Shown here one piece after another: positions 48,389 to 64,000 of a DNA stretch of 64,000 nt. The stretch is from contig JADDTR010000022.1 in NCBI GenBank assembly GCA_015345905.1, positions 124,001 to 188,000 of the forward strand, in the 5' to 3' direction. The notes under the pieces are model-generated. The model made no database searches. It was not told the DNA's origin and worked only from the letters and a program-made list of their open reading frames with translations. How positions within the stretch are numbered: the stretch's first letter is position 1; each line of letters opens with the position of its first letter. Source of the stretch: Aotearoamyces nothofagi (Eukaryota; Ascomycota; Leotiomycetes; Leotiales; Tympanidaceae). Both the position numbers and the translations under genes were made by a program.

Positions 48389-50883
48389 TTATTGTACCAC
48401 TGGTAAGTGGCTGCACTCTCCTCTCCTACGTTTACACCCCTGATCACCTTGATCACTGCTCTGCTTTCTCTTCTGTCCCGCGGCGCCGAAGTCCAGGAAC
48501 CCCTCGAGCAATGCCGCCGCAGCTCTACACGTAGCCTGCAGCTTCCCGTCGCGGGGACTCTCAGATGCCAACCTATGGTATATATCCAGCGCGTGCCTAG
48601 CATGCGACCCCTGATCCTCTCGGCGGCTGACCGATGCGAGAATCACGTGCGCCGAGGCCCGCAGATTATCGTGGACGCCGCGCTGGCCTAGCAGGTCGGA
48701 GCACAGCTCGCTGCTGTATCCGGGATCGGTGAACAGCAGCTCTCTGGCCTCTACCAGCGTCGCGTGGTGGTGCTTGTAGAGCTCCTCGGCCTCCCTCGCC
48801 GCGCAGACGCCTTCGGCAAGGAGCCGGACCTTCCTGAACCCAGCTGCGACTGCGTCGTCGGCTGTGCTGAGCTCGCAGTCTAGGAAGATCTCTACGGCTC
48901 GAATGGAATGCCCCAGGCGGTGCTTTGTGCCGGGCATGCGCGCCAGGTATAGATGGGCCCATCCAACTACCGATGGGTGAGCATCCTGCTTTTCTAACAT
49001 TTCCTTTGAAAGCAAGGCGCATTGAGTGAAGTCCTTGTTTACCCACGACTCCTCAGTTCGCCACCTCAGCCATCGGTAGCCTTTGAAGTCCTCGTCTTCG
49101 TTGTTATCCTCTTGTATACCTTGAGGTCTGGCACCTGGACCTGCGGCAGTGGGTTCTTCCAAGAAGACACTTCTTAACAAGCTTTCCGTTATTATCCGTC
49201 TCGTTGCTAAGGCTTGGGAATCCGGATTGTAGGTTTCTATCTCTTGGTATATAGAAATCGCGCGATTTGCGCGTATGGCCCTGTCGCTTCTTCTGCTTAG
49301 CATTGCTAGCAGCACGTTGGCTTGTGCCTTCAACAGCTGATGAGCATCTACTTGTTTCAAAAGATCCAAGCAGCGTGATTCGCATAGTTCAGGGTCGCTG
49401 TCGAGCACTGCCCGAGCTTCACATACCGCAACTTGATGGCGCTGATTGCGTGTCCTGATGGTCTTTTCGCGCTCTTTTTTCGGTTCAGCTTGTCCTTGGT
49501 GTCCCTCAGGTTTTGCCTCTGGGTGCAACACTGTTCTTTCTCTACGCTCTTCCCAGAAAGCGGCGCGTAAAGCCTTCTCTGCCCGCTTTGCATGTTTCCT
49601 GTCACCAGCATTCCCATATAGGGCCCTGGCATGATGTGCATGGCGAATCTTGTCGAATACCCCATACAAACGCCCACTAAGTAAGAGATGTGCCTTAGCT
49701 CTGCAAGATAACCCGTTGTGGAATTCATCCCTCGAAAAGGCTTGGAGGGTTCTGATACACAATTCATCCTCCATCAAGTTATTCTCGTACGCTTCTTTAG
49801 CATTCCTGAAGAGACTCAGATATTTCTTCTGTCGTTGCGTAAAGTCGGCATTTGCTCTGTCGGCTTGCGATTCTGGCGAGAGAGCCCTGAATTTAGCAGC
49901 TGCTCGATCTTCCGATAGAGTGTCTGGTCAAAAGTCAGTTTTCTCACACACAAAGTTTCATATGGCTGCATATACTCACGTCTCGTAAGCAATAATTTTA
50001 AATTCTCCTCTGCCCGGAGTCTGTCGTCCGACAGCTGTACATCTGCCAGGACAGAAGTTTCTTCGGCGTGTTTGTATAACCTCACACTTTCGTAGGCATT
50101 CCAAAGGGCGTCTTTGGCGTCATATAATATTATGCCGAGATAGAAATGGGCTGCAGCAAGGATGCGATGACCTGCATCTAATCCGATGTCGAGGATCTCC
50201 TCGCAAAACTCATGGCAATGTGCGTTATTGTTAAAACTGAATGCCTGCGCCGCATTATCGAGCATTTCCTGAGCATAGGGAACAAGTAATTCCTTTGTTT
50301 CGAGATCTTCCTGTGAAGATGTCGATGGTTCCCTTGAGACTCTATCCAGATCATATCTGAGGTTCTCATATTGTTTGAGCACCAGTTGGGATGAAGCAAG
50401 AAGTGTAGATGTCAGAGCCGTCTCGACAAGATCTCGTGCCTTCTTGCAACCCGCACTATTCACATCCAATAGGCTTTGACGGTAATCGTTGTACTCCTCA
50501 CTTTCTAGCCAGTCGAGTCGGAGGAAATCCTTCACATATTCTTCGTGCAATTTAGCATCCAGTATCGCAAGAATAAGGACATCATCTTGCTTCCTGATCT
50601 CTCGAACGCGTATTACCCAGGGAAGGCTTTCCTTGGGGTTGTTAGCTTGCTGATCGGGCTCGTGTGCCCCGGTGTCCGTTTCTAAACGGACTTTCTCCTG
50701 TCGAGTAGCCATAGGATGAGAGGTTTCTTCGGGTTGACGGATTTGAGCTCTAGCTATCCTGTGCGCTTTGAAATCGAGTAAAGATATATCAACAACGCTT
50801 TCGATGTTCATCACCCTGGTAGCACTCACCCAGGAATATATAGTTTTTGGAACTCTGCTAGGCTCTCTAGAGTATACTTTCAT
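48389..50883 (-). CDS. Unrecognised helical-repeat protein with bipartite nuclear signal
   Basis: Two exons (50883-49980 and 49923-48389) encode 812 residues; a 56-nt intron (donor GTGAGT, acceptor CAG) joins two long open frames. I do not recognise the family. What can be seen: repeated helical pairs of TPR-like length. Several recurrences of a Cys-x-L/Ile-Leu pattern include LCESRCLDLLKQVDAHQLLKAQ, ELCSDLLGQRGVHDNLRASA and HEFCEEILDIGLDAGHRILA. Each is followed by A-x-x-x-L-A and a stretch like ARHALDIYHR or RANRAISIYQE. The N-terminal ~60 residues lack this pattern, and the true start may be the internal MATRQEKVRL. The C-terminus has KRKQSSDQGDQGCKRRR, an ideal bipartite nuclear localisation signal. 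Coding quality is even across the gene. Possibly a scaffold protein in the nucleus; function unknown. Confidence 0.75.
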
Positions 50884-58734: not shown

Positions 58735-59726
58735 ATGTTTCAATCGTCAGCCCGAGCGGCATCGAGAAGGCTTCTAGCCTCCAAGCTCCCGTTCAACGCC
58801 TCTGGCACCCGCAGATTCCTGAGCACAGCTCCGCCGGCGCTGAAGTCGCGGAGCTGGAAGAGCGCGGCGGCGAGATGGGCGGTTGCAGCTGGTGCGGTCT
58901 ACTACTACAACACAAGCTCGGTATTTGCTGAGGAGCCCGAGGGTGAGTTCGAAACTACCTGCTCGTCCGGTTCCATGACTGATGACTGCTAGCGGCCATC
59001 CAGAGGCTCGACAAGTCGATACATCACATCCAAGACTCGAAGCTCCCGACGGTCGATGCGATTTTGGAAGAGAAGCGTGAGCGGCAAGGAGTGCAGAAGG
59101 CTCTAGAGGCGCAAAAGGCCAAGGCGGCACAACCGCCGCCGGAAGCTGGGGATGGGGCGGAGGGAGAGGGGACGTTAGATGGGCTGGAGGATGAGGCTGG
59201 CCAGCAGGGTGCGTTCAATCCCGAGACGGGCGAGATCAATTGGGATTGTCCTTGTCTGGGAGGCATGGCTCACGGTCCTTGCGGGGAGGAATTTAAGACG
59301 GCGTTCAGCTGCTTCGTTCACTCTACAGAAGAACCCAAGGGGATGGAGTGCATTGAGAAATTCAAGTGAGTTGAAACCGCGCGGTGGAAGAGTTGCCGGG
59401 GAGATGCTAACAGCGCGGATAGGGGTATGCAGGATTGTTTCCGCCAACATCCTGAGATGTACGGCTCGGAGCTCGAGGATGACGAGGATGAGGTCGAGCA
59501 GGAATTGAACGCTGATGCTTCGGCGGAAACACCCCAGGAATTGATTGCCGACGCTTCGGCGGAAACATCCCAGGAATCATCACCGCCGACGGCGCTAAAA
59601 CCCGCGGAGCCACATCCGGACTCTGAGAAGATAGCGGAGACTGTTGTTGTCGTGCCGGATATGGGCGGTGACGGTGAAGAGCTCATACCGAAGGCTATGC
59701 ATGATGCTACCGAGAAGAAGAATTAG
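58735..59726 (+). CDS. MIA40: MIA40/TIM40, mitochondrial intermembrane-space import oxidoreductase
   Basis: Three exons (58735-58942, 58993-59365, 59423-59726) encode 294 residues. Mia40 catalyses disulfide relay import of small Cys-motif proteins into the intermembrane space, re-oxidised by Erv1. Residues 1-~45 form an Arg/Ser-rich mitochondrial presequence, followed by a membrane anchor ([17 protein letters not shown]). The conserved core reads [17 protein letters not shown] (redox-active CPC) then [11 protein letters not shown] and the second CX9C partner [16 protein letters not shown], split by intron 2. The acidic C-terminal tail contains a tandem duplicate of [11 protein letters not shown] / [11 protein letters not shown], a short coding repeat. 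Acceptor choice at 59422 is forced by KFKGMQDC. Membrane-anchored long forms like this are typical of fungi. Confidence 0.94.
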
Positions 59727-60104: not shown

Positions 60105-61226
60105 CTACCCACCAGCTATCCTGATCTCCTTGAACACCCTCGTATTCTCCGTAATGGCGACCTCGACGGGCAGACGCTCCATACTCGACGCTCCGTAAAA
60201 GCCGTGGACGCCTCTCGTCCTGCTCAGGAGATACCTGGCATCGTCGGGCGACGCCAGCGGTCCACCATGGCACAGGACGATGATATCCGGCCGGATCCTC
60301 ACCGCCGCATCGCGGATCTGCTGCGTCAGAGCCACGCACTCGTCGAGACTGGGGCCGGCGGTCGCGCCGACGCTTCCCGATGTCGTCAGGCCCATGTGGG
60401 CGACCAGGACGTCGGCATTAGCTCTCGTCATCTGCTCGGCCTCTCCGGCGCTGAAGACATAGGGCGTGGTAAGGAGGCCGAGCTCCGCTGCGGTCTTGAT
60501 CATGGCTACCTCTTGGCCGTAGCCCATGCCTGTGTCTTCGAGGTTTTGCCGGAATCTGCCGTCGATCAGGCCGACCGTCGGGACTGTGGCGGGGCTGGGG
60601 TTAGGAGGCGCGAGGGGAGCAGGAGGGGGGACGGGACGGACAGTTTTGGACGCCGCAGAACCCGAGGTCTTTGAGCTGGTGTAGGAAGGAGGGCATTTGG
60701 CGGAAGGGGTCTGATGCGCATACTCCTGCGATGACGCCGGTGTTTTGCACGACGGGGAGAACTTCTCTTGCCTGAGATATATAGAGCTTCTGTTAGCCTT
60801 CCAAGGCCTCGATTATCCGACTTTGTAGCATTTTGTTCTTTCTGCCACAGTTTATTTTGAGGTGGGACAAGACGAGGGAGAGGTATTTACAATAACAGAG
60901 AACTTGGCCGTGGGAGAGAGAAAGGCCCTACCATTGATACCACGACTTCATTTGCATCACTATAAGGCATGAGGCCTGCCAAGGAGCCGCGACCAGCCAT
61001 ACGAAAGCGTCCAGAGTTGTAGATTATGATCAGGTCGGCGCCCCCTTTCTCGACGAACTTGGCTGATAATCCAATGCCTGCTCTCAGCTATTAGCGGGAC
61101 ATATTCAACAGAACAGTCGCTAACGATGGGTTTCATACCGGCTCCTGCACCGATGATGGCTCGGCCTTCTGCTATACTTTTGCGAAGCCGCTCGAGAACT
61201 ACTTTTCTTTCCGTGACAGGCGCCAT
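60105..61226 (-). CDS. PEP-hydrolase-like TIM-barrel protein (Tm-1 C-terminal domain homologue)
   Basis: Four exons (61226-61139, 61077-60932, 60771-60642, 60583-60105) encode 280 residues of the PEP_hydrolase/IGPS-like TIM-barrel family. Seen: [125 protein letters not shown], and [14 protein letters not shown]. Intron 3 has an unusual donor, GTCCGT, with branch CTAAC and acceptor CACAG; it is needed to join QNF to PTVGLIDG. Intron 2 is long for this genome (160 nt). In the plant Tm-1 protein the homologous barrel is fused C-terminally to a UPF0261 domain; here that domain is the divergent neighbour. The enzymatic reaction is not established for this group. Confidence 0.88.
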
Positions 61227-61691
61227 GGACGCTTCTGGGGGAGTGACGAAAGGCTTATCGAGTATACAGGTTCATAAGATAATATGAAGAGATCTGCGGA
61301 AAGAAGTCGAGGAGTGAGAGGCTATCATCAAGCTGAGCATTTAGACCAATGCGTGCCAGAGAGCGGAAAGATGCATAATGGTGCGGGGAGTTTCCGCATC
61401 GACGTAAGGGCCCTCTTGTCTGCTGCGCTGGATACCGTGATCTATATTACGTGGCTCTATCTGATATTATAAGCGTACAAGTACAATCCGTACTGAGATG
61501 TTCAATTGATTATACGGACGGAGGCATGCCACGTGTATTTTGGGTTCGTAACACATGACGTATCTTCCACCCCTCTTTACCGAAGTATGCAAGAGAGGAA
61601 TATAACACATAACACGCCCGCACCGTACAGTACATGAGATGCCACCAAGCGTCTCCCGGCCGAGACATGGGACTGTACGATCCACCAAGCC
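61227..61691. promoter_or_regulatory. Bidirectional promoter of the TIM-barrel/UPF0261 pair
   Basis: 465 bp between two divergent start codons. No obvious symmetrical operator was seen. The short gap makes co-expression plausible. Confidence 0.45.
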
Positions 61692-63038
61692 ATGGCCGGA
61701 TCAGCGAAGCCTACAGTCCTGCTCTTCGGCACTTGCGATACGAAGCTCGATGAACTCCTCCACGCCCGCTCGAGCATCCTGGAGCACGGCCGGGCCGATG
61801 TTCTCCTGGCAGATGTCGGCAGAGTGCCCGCGACTTCGGACGAGATTGATATCCGTCAGCCGGATGTTCTGAAATACCATCCTGATCCGATTGCGGCAGG
61901 GGAAGTCAAGGCTCTGCCTCGAGGTAAGCTGATTGCCTACCTCGCGGAAGCTATGATTCCGCTAGTGGCGATGCTGTATCGCTCGAAAACAATTCATGGC
62001 GTCTTGGCTCTGGGGGGGAGCGGTGGGACGTCGCTTGCTTCTAATGTGATGCGTGCGGCGCTTCCGACTGGGTTTCCGAAGCTCATCGTTTCGACCGTGG
62101 CTGCAGGTGATGTGTCTTCTTTCGTTGGAGAGACCGACATCACCATGATGTACTCGGTGGTTGATATTTCTGGTCTAAACAGTATCCTTTCCAGCGTCCT
62201 TCAAAATGCCGCTGGTGCTATCAGCGGCATGGCGGAGGCCTTCCAGAGCCGCTCAATTCGGCCAGGTGGCAGCGAAAGGCGGATGGCTATCGCCTTGTCC
62301 ATGTTTGGTGTGACGACGCCGGCGGTTGCAGCTGCGCGGAAGTATATCGCCTCTTTGGGTGAATCTCTTTACGAGACTTTCGTCTTCCATGCGACTGGAG
62401 CGGGTGGAAAGGCCATGGAGCGTTTGATACGCGAAGGGAAAATCGATGGAGTATTGGACTTTACGACTACCGAGCTCGCAGATGAGCTGGTGGGTGGAAA
62501 CATGTCAGCGGGACCCGATCGACTGACTGCAGCTTCCAAACGAGGAATCCCGCAGATTGTCTCGGTTGGTGCACTTGATATGGTACTATAGCAATCACAC
62601 TTCCACTTCATGTTAGAGCAGCAGCTGACCGCAACGTAGGTGAACTTCGGGCCCCTATCGACAGTGCCAGAAAAGTTCAAGGAAAGAAGACTCGTTGAGC
62701 ACAACCCGAACGTGACGATCATGCGGACCAACGCCGCCGAGTGCAAGCAGCTAGGCACGATCCTCGGCCACAAGCTGCGCAAGCACGCAACAGACCAGAG
62801 CATGGTCCAGGTCTGGCTACCGGTCCATGGGGTGAGTGCGCTTTCCGAGAAAGACGGGCCGTTCCACGACGCGGAGGCTGATAGCGCGCTGTTTGGTGCC
62901 GTCGAGGAGGAGTTGAGGTATAGCACCATCGCGCTGGTGATGTATTGTGGCAAGATCAACGACGAGGAGTTTGCGGTGGATGCGACGAGGCGGCTGTTGG
63001 AGCTGATGGTTAAGAAGGAGACGGATGGCGGATTGTGA
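61692..63038 (+). CDS. UPF0261 / Tm-1-like ATP-binding domain protein
   Basis: Two exons (61692-62582 and 62640-63038) encode 429 residues. The chain starts KPTVLLFGTCDTKLDELL and contains the glycine loop LGGSGGTSLAS near residue 108. Also seen: PKLIVSTVAAGDVSSFVGETDITMMYSVVDISGLN, SMFGVTTPAVAAARKYI, FHATGAGGKAMERLI, LDFTTTELADELVGG, and in exon 2 NFGPLSTVPEKFKERRL and PVHGVSALSEKDGPFHD. This is the complete two-subdomain UPF0261 fold, whose plant member (Tm-1 N-terminus) binds ATP and the replication protein of tomato mosaic virus. Fungal and bacterial homologues exist with no assigned role. Tail-to-tail with an MFS-like gene. Confidence in family is high; in function, low. Confidence 0.9.
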
Positions 63039-63359: not shown

Positions 63360-64000
63360 TTATTGAGTAGGAGCATGAGACACAACATTGGGTTCCAATA
63401 TTTTCTCAGCAATATCATCCCCATGACTCATGCTTTCTACATTCCTCTCCTCGTCAGTCGGCCCATTCAAGTCCTCATCATCTAGCATCCTTGGGTTGAA
63501 CGAGAGAGCCCCACGCGGCACCAACGTAGCGGCGAGCACTACAGCCGCCAGAATCGTAAACTGGACGCCGGCGATGTTGCGGATGGCCTCGTGAACGTCA
63601 CCGCTGTTGTCGGCAGATACGCGATCGACGTATTTCCCAAGCAGGGGCGAGGCGATGGCGTAGAGGACGATGTATGTGGAATAGAGGAAGGCCATGACGG
63701 CGCCGAGGGCGGAGACGTGCTTGTGTTCACGTTCCTGGCGGTGGATCAGGGCTTGGATGTAGGCGGCGAGAGAGACGTCGCCGGCAGCCCAGCCGAAGGA
63801 GACGGGGATGAGGGAGCCCGCGACGGCCCATGCCTGGCTGACGTTGTTTTTGGATGGGTACCAGGAGGTGAGATACCAGACGATCATGAGCATGCAGGCG
63901 TCGAGACGCAGCCACGGTATGGGTGTGCGAATGACATTCGTAAAGAGGAAAACGAAGACCGCGCCGAGCAGTTCGCCGAAGTTGGAGCCGCCAACCATGA
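63360..64000 (-). CDS. MFS-like transporter, C-terminal half (5' partial at window edge)
   Basis: The minus frame ends with a stop at 63360 and is open to the right edge, so the N-terminal half lies beyond 64000. The visible ~213 residues show at least five hydrophobic helices (LLGAVFVFLFTNVI, LDACMLMIVWYLTSW, AWAVAGSLIPVSFGWAAGD, VMAFLYSTYIVLYAIASPLLG, GVQFTILAAVVLAATLVP). The end is a long acidic cytosolic tail (RMLDDEDLNGPTDEERNVES). This matches the C-terminal bundle of an uncharacterised fungal MFS-type group; the substrate is unknown. Confidence 0.75.
   Translation of the reverse strand, partial: MVGGSNFGELLGAVFVFLFTNVIRTPIPWLRLDACMLMIVWYLTSWYPSKNNVSQAWAVAGSLIPVSFGWAAGDVSLAAYIQALIHRQEREHKHVSALGAVMAFLYSTYIVLYAIASPLLGKYVDRVSADNSGDVHEAIRNIAGVQFTILAAVVLAATLVPRGALSFNPRMLDDEDLNGPTDEERNVESMSHGDDIAEKILEPNVVSHAPTQ

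Follow-up and report, generated by a model that had tools for sequence, protein, structure and literature searches.

Head-to-head UPF0261 and TIM-barrel genes in the fungus Aotearoamyces nothofagi: a candidate two-step metabolic module related to tomato Tm-1

Introduction

What does a fungus do with two proteins whose counterparts are fused in the tomato antiviral factor Tm-1? The question is raised by a stretch of 64,000 nucleotides of Aotearoamyces nothofagi (contig JADDTR010000022.1, positions 124,001 to 188,000; hereafter the window), in which a UPF0261 gene on the plus strand and a PF09370 gene for a triosephosphate isomerase (TIM) barrel on the minus strand lie head to head. An initial annotation, made from the letters of the window, described them as a split Tm-1-like pair with conserved linkage, forming a complex or serving one pathway and possibly touching mycovirus replication. 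The explanation that we favour, at slightly better than even chances, is a cytosolic two-step metabolic module of prokaryotic derivation, in which UPF0261 would be a kinase and the TIM barrel would act on its product.

Separate UPF0261 and TIM genes are already known. In bacteria, archaea and fungi they were described by Yang et al. 2016 (PMC5028733; cited here, like the other PMC papers, from the sections available), who called the TIM family TIM-barrel signal transduction (TBST), proposed that the products interact, reported correlated evolution of the two genes in all three groups and counted one of each in 61 of 68 TIM-bearing fungal genomes. The same sections mention two Aspergillus genes globally similar to the plant fusion, argue for a prokaryotic origin of the fungal genes and for two transfers plus a fusion behind the plant gene, and place fungal UPF0261 apart from that of plants, but put the TIM domain of fungi next to that of plants, as its sister (PMC5028733). 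The label 'split' misleads, since the unfused arrangement is regarded as ancestral and plant Tm-1 as a derived fusion; this work and the acetovanillone-bound structure 9mpy likewise outdate the view that what is established concerns the plant protein alone. The present pair belongs to the same two families, mostly present once each per genome, and adds fungal gene order and a divergent intergenic region to the co-occurrence and correlated evolution treated in those sections.

Two complete genes and their intergenic region

The gene models were chosen for an open frame and for the conserved family residues that splicing regains, the TIM model by reading the sequence itself. By frame and homology, predicted splicing gives a UPF0261 product of 429 amino acids from two exons and a TIM-barrel product of 280 amino acids from four. 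In window coordinates, the features are:

60105..60583, minus strand, TIM gene exon 4, bulk of the barrel, through the stop
60584..60641, minus strand, TIM gene intron 3, 58 bp; donor GTCCGT unusual beyond GT; CTAAC element ahead of the CACAG acceptor
60642..60771, minus strand, TIM gene exon 3, predicted splicing
60772..60931, minus strand, TIM gene intron 2, 160 bp, GTAGGG...CTCAG; picked for the 13-residue stretch that its removal gives
60932..61077, minus strand, TIM gene exon 2, predicted splicing
61078..61138, minus strand, TIM gene intron 1, 61 bp, GTATGA...GCAG
61139..61226, minus strand, TIM gene exon 1, predicted splicing
61227..61691, no strand, intergenic region from ATG to ATG, 465 bp, 48.8% GC
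61692..62582, plus strand, UPF0261 gene exon 1, residues 1-297; holds PF06792 and the beginning of PF23189
62583..62639, plus strand, UPF0261 gene intron, 57 bp, GTACTA...CGTAG; CTGAC element ahead of the acceptor
62640..63038, plus strand, UPF0261 gene exon 2, residues 298-429 plus stop

Removal of the UPF0261 intron regains DMVNF, which is near-invariant in 50 homologues, and removal of TIM intron 3 yields an 11-residue stretch with 10 of its 11 positions invariant or near-invariant in 43 homologues. Both UPF0261 family domains are confirmed in one protein (PF06792 at 205.7 bits and PF23189 at 290.8 bits; cut-off 27 each), and the TIM protein carries a full-length PF09370 domain (433.6 bits against a cut-off of 33.8; profile positions 2-267 of 267) and no output domain in the Pfam scan. 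In the alignment of 50 prokaryotic homologues the fungal UPF0261 protein keeps all 18 invariant and 62 of 72 near-invariant columns; the TIM protein, set against its 43 homologues, keeps 55 of 58 invariant columns, with three replaced, and 51 of 59 near-invariant ones. Since these columns are largely kept, both proteins look functional and constrained for the ordinary work of their families. A cytosolic location is probable for both, as the Pfam domains begin at residues 7 and 10 and so leave scant space for a targeting peptide.

A six-frame search of the genome (25.5 Mb, 55 contigs; best candidates only) found one locus per family, and a further scan of genome contigs again gave one locus. 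The pair is thus intact, single-copy and of a known kind, and the reading of both domains as complete, separately coded proteins (429 and 280 residues) 465 bp apart is borne out by the gene models and Pfam. The 465-bp region probably has promoter function; one CACGTG palindrome lies at 61530, in the region common to both starts.

Relation to plant Tm-1 and placement in trees

Plant Tm-1 and Tm-1L (PDB 3wrw, 3wrx, 3wry) belong to the same UPF0261 family, with 164 of 404 aligned residues identical to the fungal protein; Tm-1 keeps 18 of 18 invariant UPF0261 columns and has a C-terminal partner of the same kind as the fungal TIM protein. The plant protein is one fused polypeptide, whereas the fungal pair comprises two genes on opposite strands.

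On a long branch of the UPF0261 tree, the fungal protein is the sister of a clade that unites proteobacterial and planctomycete proteins with tomato Tm-1 (support 98/89), and in the TIM tree the fungal protein is similarly placed (94/82). The UPF0261 half of tomato Tm-1 falls within an otherwise planctomycete clade (100/98), with the fungal protein outside and the nearest rows weakly supported (92/54), a position in line with Yang et al. (PMC5028733). A second tree, to which 9mpy was added, recovers an 18-row clade (98/91) of 16 prokaryotic TIM-paired proteins, tomato and the fungal row; within it the fungal row has no settled place, its exact position being unsure because of the long branch.

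Linkage of the two families in prokaryotes

In Planctomycetota, 294 genomes were searched for each family. As only the best candidates per genome were scored, the counts are lower bounds. UPF0261 occurs in at least 57 of the genomes (at least 70 genes), every one of these 57 also containing PF09370; PF09370 itself has matches in at least 62 genomes, over the cut-off in 60, and in three it stands over the cut-off without UPF0261. Within 5 kb of 57 of the 70 UPF0261 genes lies a PF09370 match, and in every case a same-strand one is present (37 downstream, 20 upstream). Among the 13 UPF0261 genes without such a match, two are close to the start of a contig (about 300 bases), and another (genome G110, contig 39) has a diverging opposite-strand match 5.2 kb off. 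For ten UPF0261 genes a long PF09370 frame lies on the opposite strand, divergent and upstream in nine and convergent in one.

A similar picture comes from 26 plasmid regions, partly picked for diversity and not random, 16 of which hold a full-length UPF0261 and PF09370 pair on one strand. No pair is in view in the other ten (L014, L015, L071 with TIM only, L076, L077, L078 and L120-L123, the last four judged from annotation alone). For the UPF0261 loci L014, L015, L076, L077 and L078, BLAST gave no TIM match in the region, nor for L014 and L015 across the whole plasmid record. Co-occurrence and neighbourhood in planctomycetes and in this non-random plasmid set thus favour the 'one pathway' part of the earlier suggestion of a complex or a shared pathway. 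'Conserved linkage' holds for these planctomycetes and plasmids but is unreadable from one fungal genome. When orientation is scored, prokaryotic members of the two families do adjoin, yet on the same strand: among the pairs seen within 5 kb, none made of full-length free-standing genes was divergent, and the head-to-head layout in A. nothofagi therefore differs from that of the full-length prokaryotic pairs.

Shortened and fused PF09370 variants accompany some full-length pairs. Short PF09370-like proteins (about 165-240 amino acids, partial or weak matches) were seen at L066 6971-7561, L009 4386-5105, L072 10761-11261 and L012 5757-6254, and are divergent from UPF0261 in NGR234 (L066) and, by a weak match, in Bradyrhizobium (L012). 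In all three long plasmid proteins scanned, a PF09370 barrel near the pair is fused to Sigma54_activat and HTH_8 (L009 5087-6868, L010 2292-4142, L012 3969-5744); these fusions are probably regulators whose sensor domain was copied from the enzyme barrel. No UPF0261-TIM fusion was found among the stop-to-stop frames of L005-L073.

Single-linkage clustering of neighbours at 40 planctomycete and 20 plasmid loci revealed no third universal gene beyond the two families, the next clusters covering 11, 6, 5, 5, 4 and 4 loci; these counts run low, as the caller of open reading frames dropped true UPF0261 frames (their cluster appears in 41 of 60 loci). L077 and L078 entered the TIM cluster by chaining, neither having a direct TIM match. 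A small cupin gene is linked to the pair in haloarchaea and Rhizobium (L007 6564-7001, L008 9068-9481, L067 5567-5995, L073 5567-5995), between the UPF0261 and TIM genes in three haloarchaeal regions; the L007 and L008 translations are alike by eye, and the cupin may belong to the module as its third component.

A kinase lead from acetovanillone catabolism

The fungal UPF0261 protein matches four solved sequences, of which 9mpy is the sole non-plant one (E 2e-50). This is the UPF0261 protein Saro_1862 of Novosphingobium aromaticivorans with bound acetovanillone, and it keeps 16 of the 18 invariant columns. A Foldseek search with a planctomycete UPF0261 model (predicted local distance difference test, pLDDT, 92.8) returned the tomato Tm-1 structures first and then 9mpy at 7.8e-34. 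Acetovanillone catabolism in N. aromaticivorans begins with MarK, a single-component kinase (PMC13101465), and Saro_1862 is presumably MarK.

The gene for an N. humi protein 71% identical to Saro_1862 is followed by biotin carboxylase and carboxyltransferase (PYC_OADA) genes, with VanA (vanillate O-demethylase) further along. Plasmids of Sphingomonas bisphenolicum and Pseudomonas putida YC-AE1 carry, after UPF0261, three genes of the biotin carboxylase type and then a haloacid dehalogenase (HAD) hydrolase gene. No TIM gene was seen beside these relatives of Saro_1862 (L076 by BLAST, L120 and L121 by annotation). Their block order matches that of hpeHI-CBA-D, in which the kinase comes first, the carboxylase next and the phosphatase last (PMC9618137), although the order of the carboxylase subunits differs; because the block order is equal, UPF0261 appears to occupy the kinase's slot in these operons. 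The hydroxyphenylethanone pathways HpeHI-CBA-D and AcvABCDEF resemble what we propose for the fungal pair in that a phenol is phosphorylated and the product then processed. They differ in having a two-component kinase, homologous to phenylphosphate synthase and not to UPF0261, followed by a carboxylase and not by a TIM barrel (PMC9618137).

Another TIM-less type of UPF0261 was observed with aminotransferase and HAD hydrolase or phosphotransferase genes (L077, L078, L122, L123), in two cases with homoprotocatechuate (hpa) genes alongside. This context, too, points to phosphorylated intermediates in the breakdown of aromatics or amines and may represent an undescribed phosphorylation route for aromatic amines. 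We read UPF0261 as a family of small-molecule kinases found in three or more contexts; the TIM-partnered one would be that of the fungal and plant members.

For the partner, the closest solved relative is Mll9387 of Mesorhizobium loti (PDB 2p10), a putative phosphonopyruvate hydrolase whose PF09370 barrel matches the fungal protein at E 4e-108. To our knowledge it has no tested activity, and its title says 'putative'. The family's PEP_hydrolase-like name is an annotation, and hydrolysis of phosphoenolpyruvate (PEP) or phosphonopyruvate is a putative reaction. Pyruvate kinase genes lie near the pair in two Bradyrhizobium plasmids (L012 10891-12303, L079 9808-11220) and a PPDK_N gene does so in Thermomicrobium (L006 10633-11604); these neighbours hint at PEP release by the TIM step, in too few cases for a claim. 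In fungi, one table line lists a UPF0261 gene as late-upregulated in brown-rot species (PMC6867892), which fits use on lignocellulose products. Our literature search, which reached few subscription journals, turned up nothing on what the UPF0261-TIM pair does.

Genes around the fungal pair

Two genes flank the pair in the window:

59064-59726, on the other flank of the pair, CHCH-type gene, 17.7 bits, under cut-off
63360-63998, running beyond the window (L074 7360-8982), major facilitator superfamily (MFS) transporter gene, convergent with UPF0261 and 321 bp from its stop; MFS_1 40.8 bits

The CHCH-type gene is presumably Mia40-like, and the MFS neighbour is a possible transporter of the pathway. 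Further away, at 48389-50883, two neighbouring minus-strand open frames of 462 and 355 amino acids have no Pfam match; they are possibly one gene or a local duplication.

A proposed pathway and its alternatives

In the module that we favour, acquired by fungi from prokaryotes, UPF0261 would phosphorylate the hydroxyl of a small molecule at the expense of ATP, plausibly a phenolic one, as MarK would with acetovanillone. The PF09370 barrel would then cleave or hydrolyse the phosphorylated product, standing in for the carboxylase and phosphatase that a MarK-type operon encodes. The divergent 465-bp region would allow co-regulation without an operon, head-to-head placement playing the operon's role. 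More tentatively, in a narrower version that we hold less probable than the module itself, all TIM-paired UPF0261 proteins, those of the fungus and of the Tm-1 fusion among them, would work with their barrels as a kinase and a lyase or hydrolase on phenolics, for instance compounds freed from lignin, by way of phosphorylated intermediates.

Several observations weigh against this explanation. The kinase activity of MarK is taken from one citing sentence and its reference (PMC13101465). The fungal UPF0261 protein is identical to 9mpy at only 122 of 384 positions, and 9mpy and its N. humi relative group separately (100/100) from the TIM-paired clade that includes the fungus, on long branches; this low identity and separate grouping mean that the substrate, and even the chemistry, may differ. 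Being outside the 9mpy clade and without biotin carboxylase or HAD neighbours, the fungal protein is not of the MarK type on either count. No carboxylase or phosphatase gene directly adjoins the pair, whose flanks are the CHCH-like and MFS genes. A model of the TIM barrel (pLDDT 86.5) matches 2p10 and then, only remotely, lyases and barrels that handle phosphate (methylisocitrate lyase, TrpC and Pdx1); its reaction is putative. A search of the fungal genome for the cupin that accompanies the pair in R. leguminosarum and haloarchaea found none, a weak negative from one query with no positive control. Finally, a wide range of genes adjoins the TIM-paired ones (often sugar ABC transporters, cupins and Gfo/Idh/MocA, also SRPBCC), and with such neighbours sugar-like substrates fit at least as well as phenolics.

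Much of the linkage evidence would also suit a single enzyme of which UPF0261 and TIM are subunits, the barrel being an obligate heteromer partner and neither protein active alone. This alternative, unlikely but to be taken seriously, draws on the fusion of the domains in plants, the two Aspergillus genes said to resemble the fusion globally, the correlated evolution in bacteria, archaea and fungi (PMC5028733) and the 57 of 57 UPF0261-bearing planctomycete genomes, among 294, that also hold PF09370. It is countered by UPF0261 genes without a BLAST match to TIM (L014, L015, L076, L077, L078), by three planctomycete genomes with PF09370 alone over the cut-off and by the description of MarK as single-component (PMC13101465). 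Distinctly less probable is a barrel that mainly senses and signals, reporting the substrate or product of UPF0261 as the old name TIM-barrel signal transduction implies. Such a role is what the three PF09370-Sigma54_activat-HTH_8 proteins near the pair (three of three scanned) and the long opposite-strand PF09370 frames of planctomycetes (nine divergent upstream, one convergent) would lead one to consider, but the fungal protein is free-standing, lacks an output domain and keeps 55 of 58 invariant columns. Free-standing relatives also co-occur with the regulator version, and this coexistence suggests that the regulator is the derived copy. That the adjacency is an accident in this fungus seems very improbable: two single-copy genes would fall 465 bp apart in 25.5 Mb with a chance of about 1e-4 (our own estimate, not computed by a tool), and the same families are neighbours in prokaryotes, even if the layout is unlike that of full-length prokaryotic pairs within 5 kb and fungal adjacency was seen here in one genome.

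Least credible of all is an antiviral role touching mycovirus replication, for which the sole argument is homology to tomato Tm-1 (the 164 of 404 identical residues). Tm-1 residues 79-112, positively selected and important for virus inhibition (PMC3475678), are poorly conserved: against tomato chain 3wry the fungal protein shares 6 of 34 of them versus 163 of 391 residues overall, which ranks the segment in the bottom 6% of windows of 34 residues. Tm-1 inhibits the virus without needing its TIM half (PMC5028733), Ishibashi et al. 2012 suggest that virus binding was gained incidentally (PMC3475678), and the family occurs widely among bacteria and archaea. Neither protein has a PADLOC match, the UPF0261 protein has no match in PHROGs (a comparison that left out the TIM protein), and the word 'mycovirus' is absent from the papers among the matches listed in the literature search. 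On these grounds we reject mycovirus defence and see nothing that would lead one to expect the fungal pair to be antiviral.

Significance for the Tm-1 family

The authors of the work on Tm-1, a tomato resistance gene, went no further than to suggest another primary function (PMC3475678), and the link to an acetovanillone-binding protein that is probably a kinase provides a concrete assay for it. The fungal pair makes this primary function testable as a kinase plus a partner reaction and is a convenient test case, because each half can be produced as a protein of its own and then combined with the other. Should the phenolic version of the module prove true, aromatics would be handled in fungi through phosphorylation, by a route not met in our literature search, and Tm-1 would be an aromatic small-molecule kinase that inhibits virus as a side effect.

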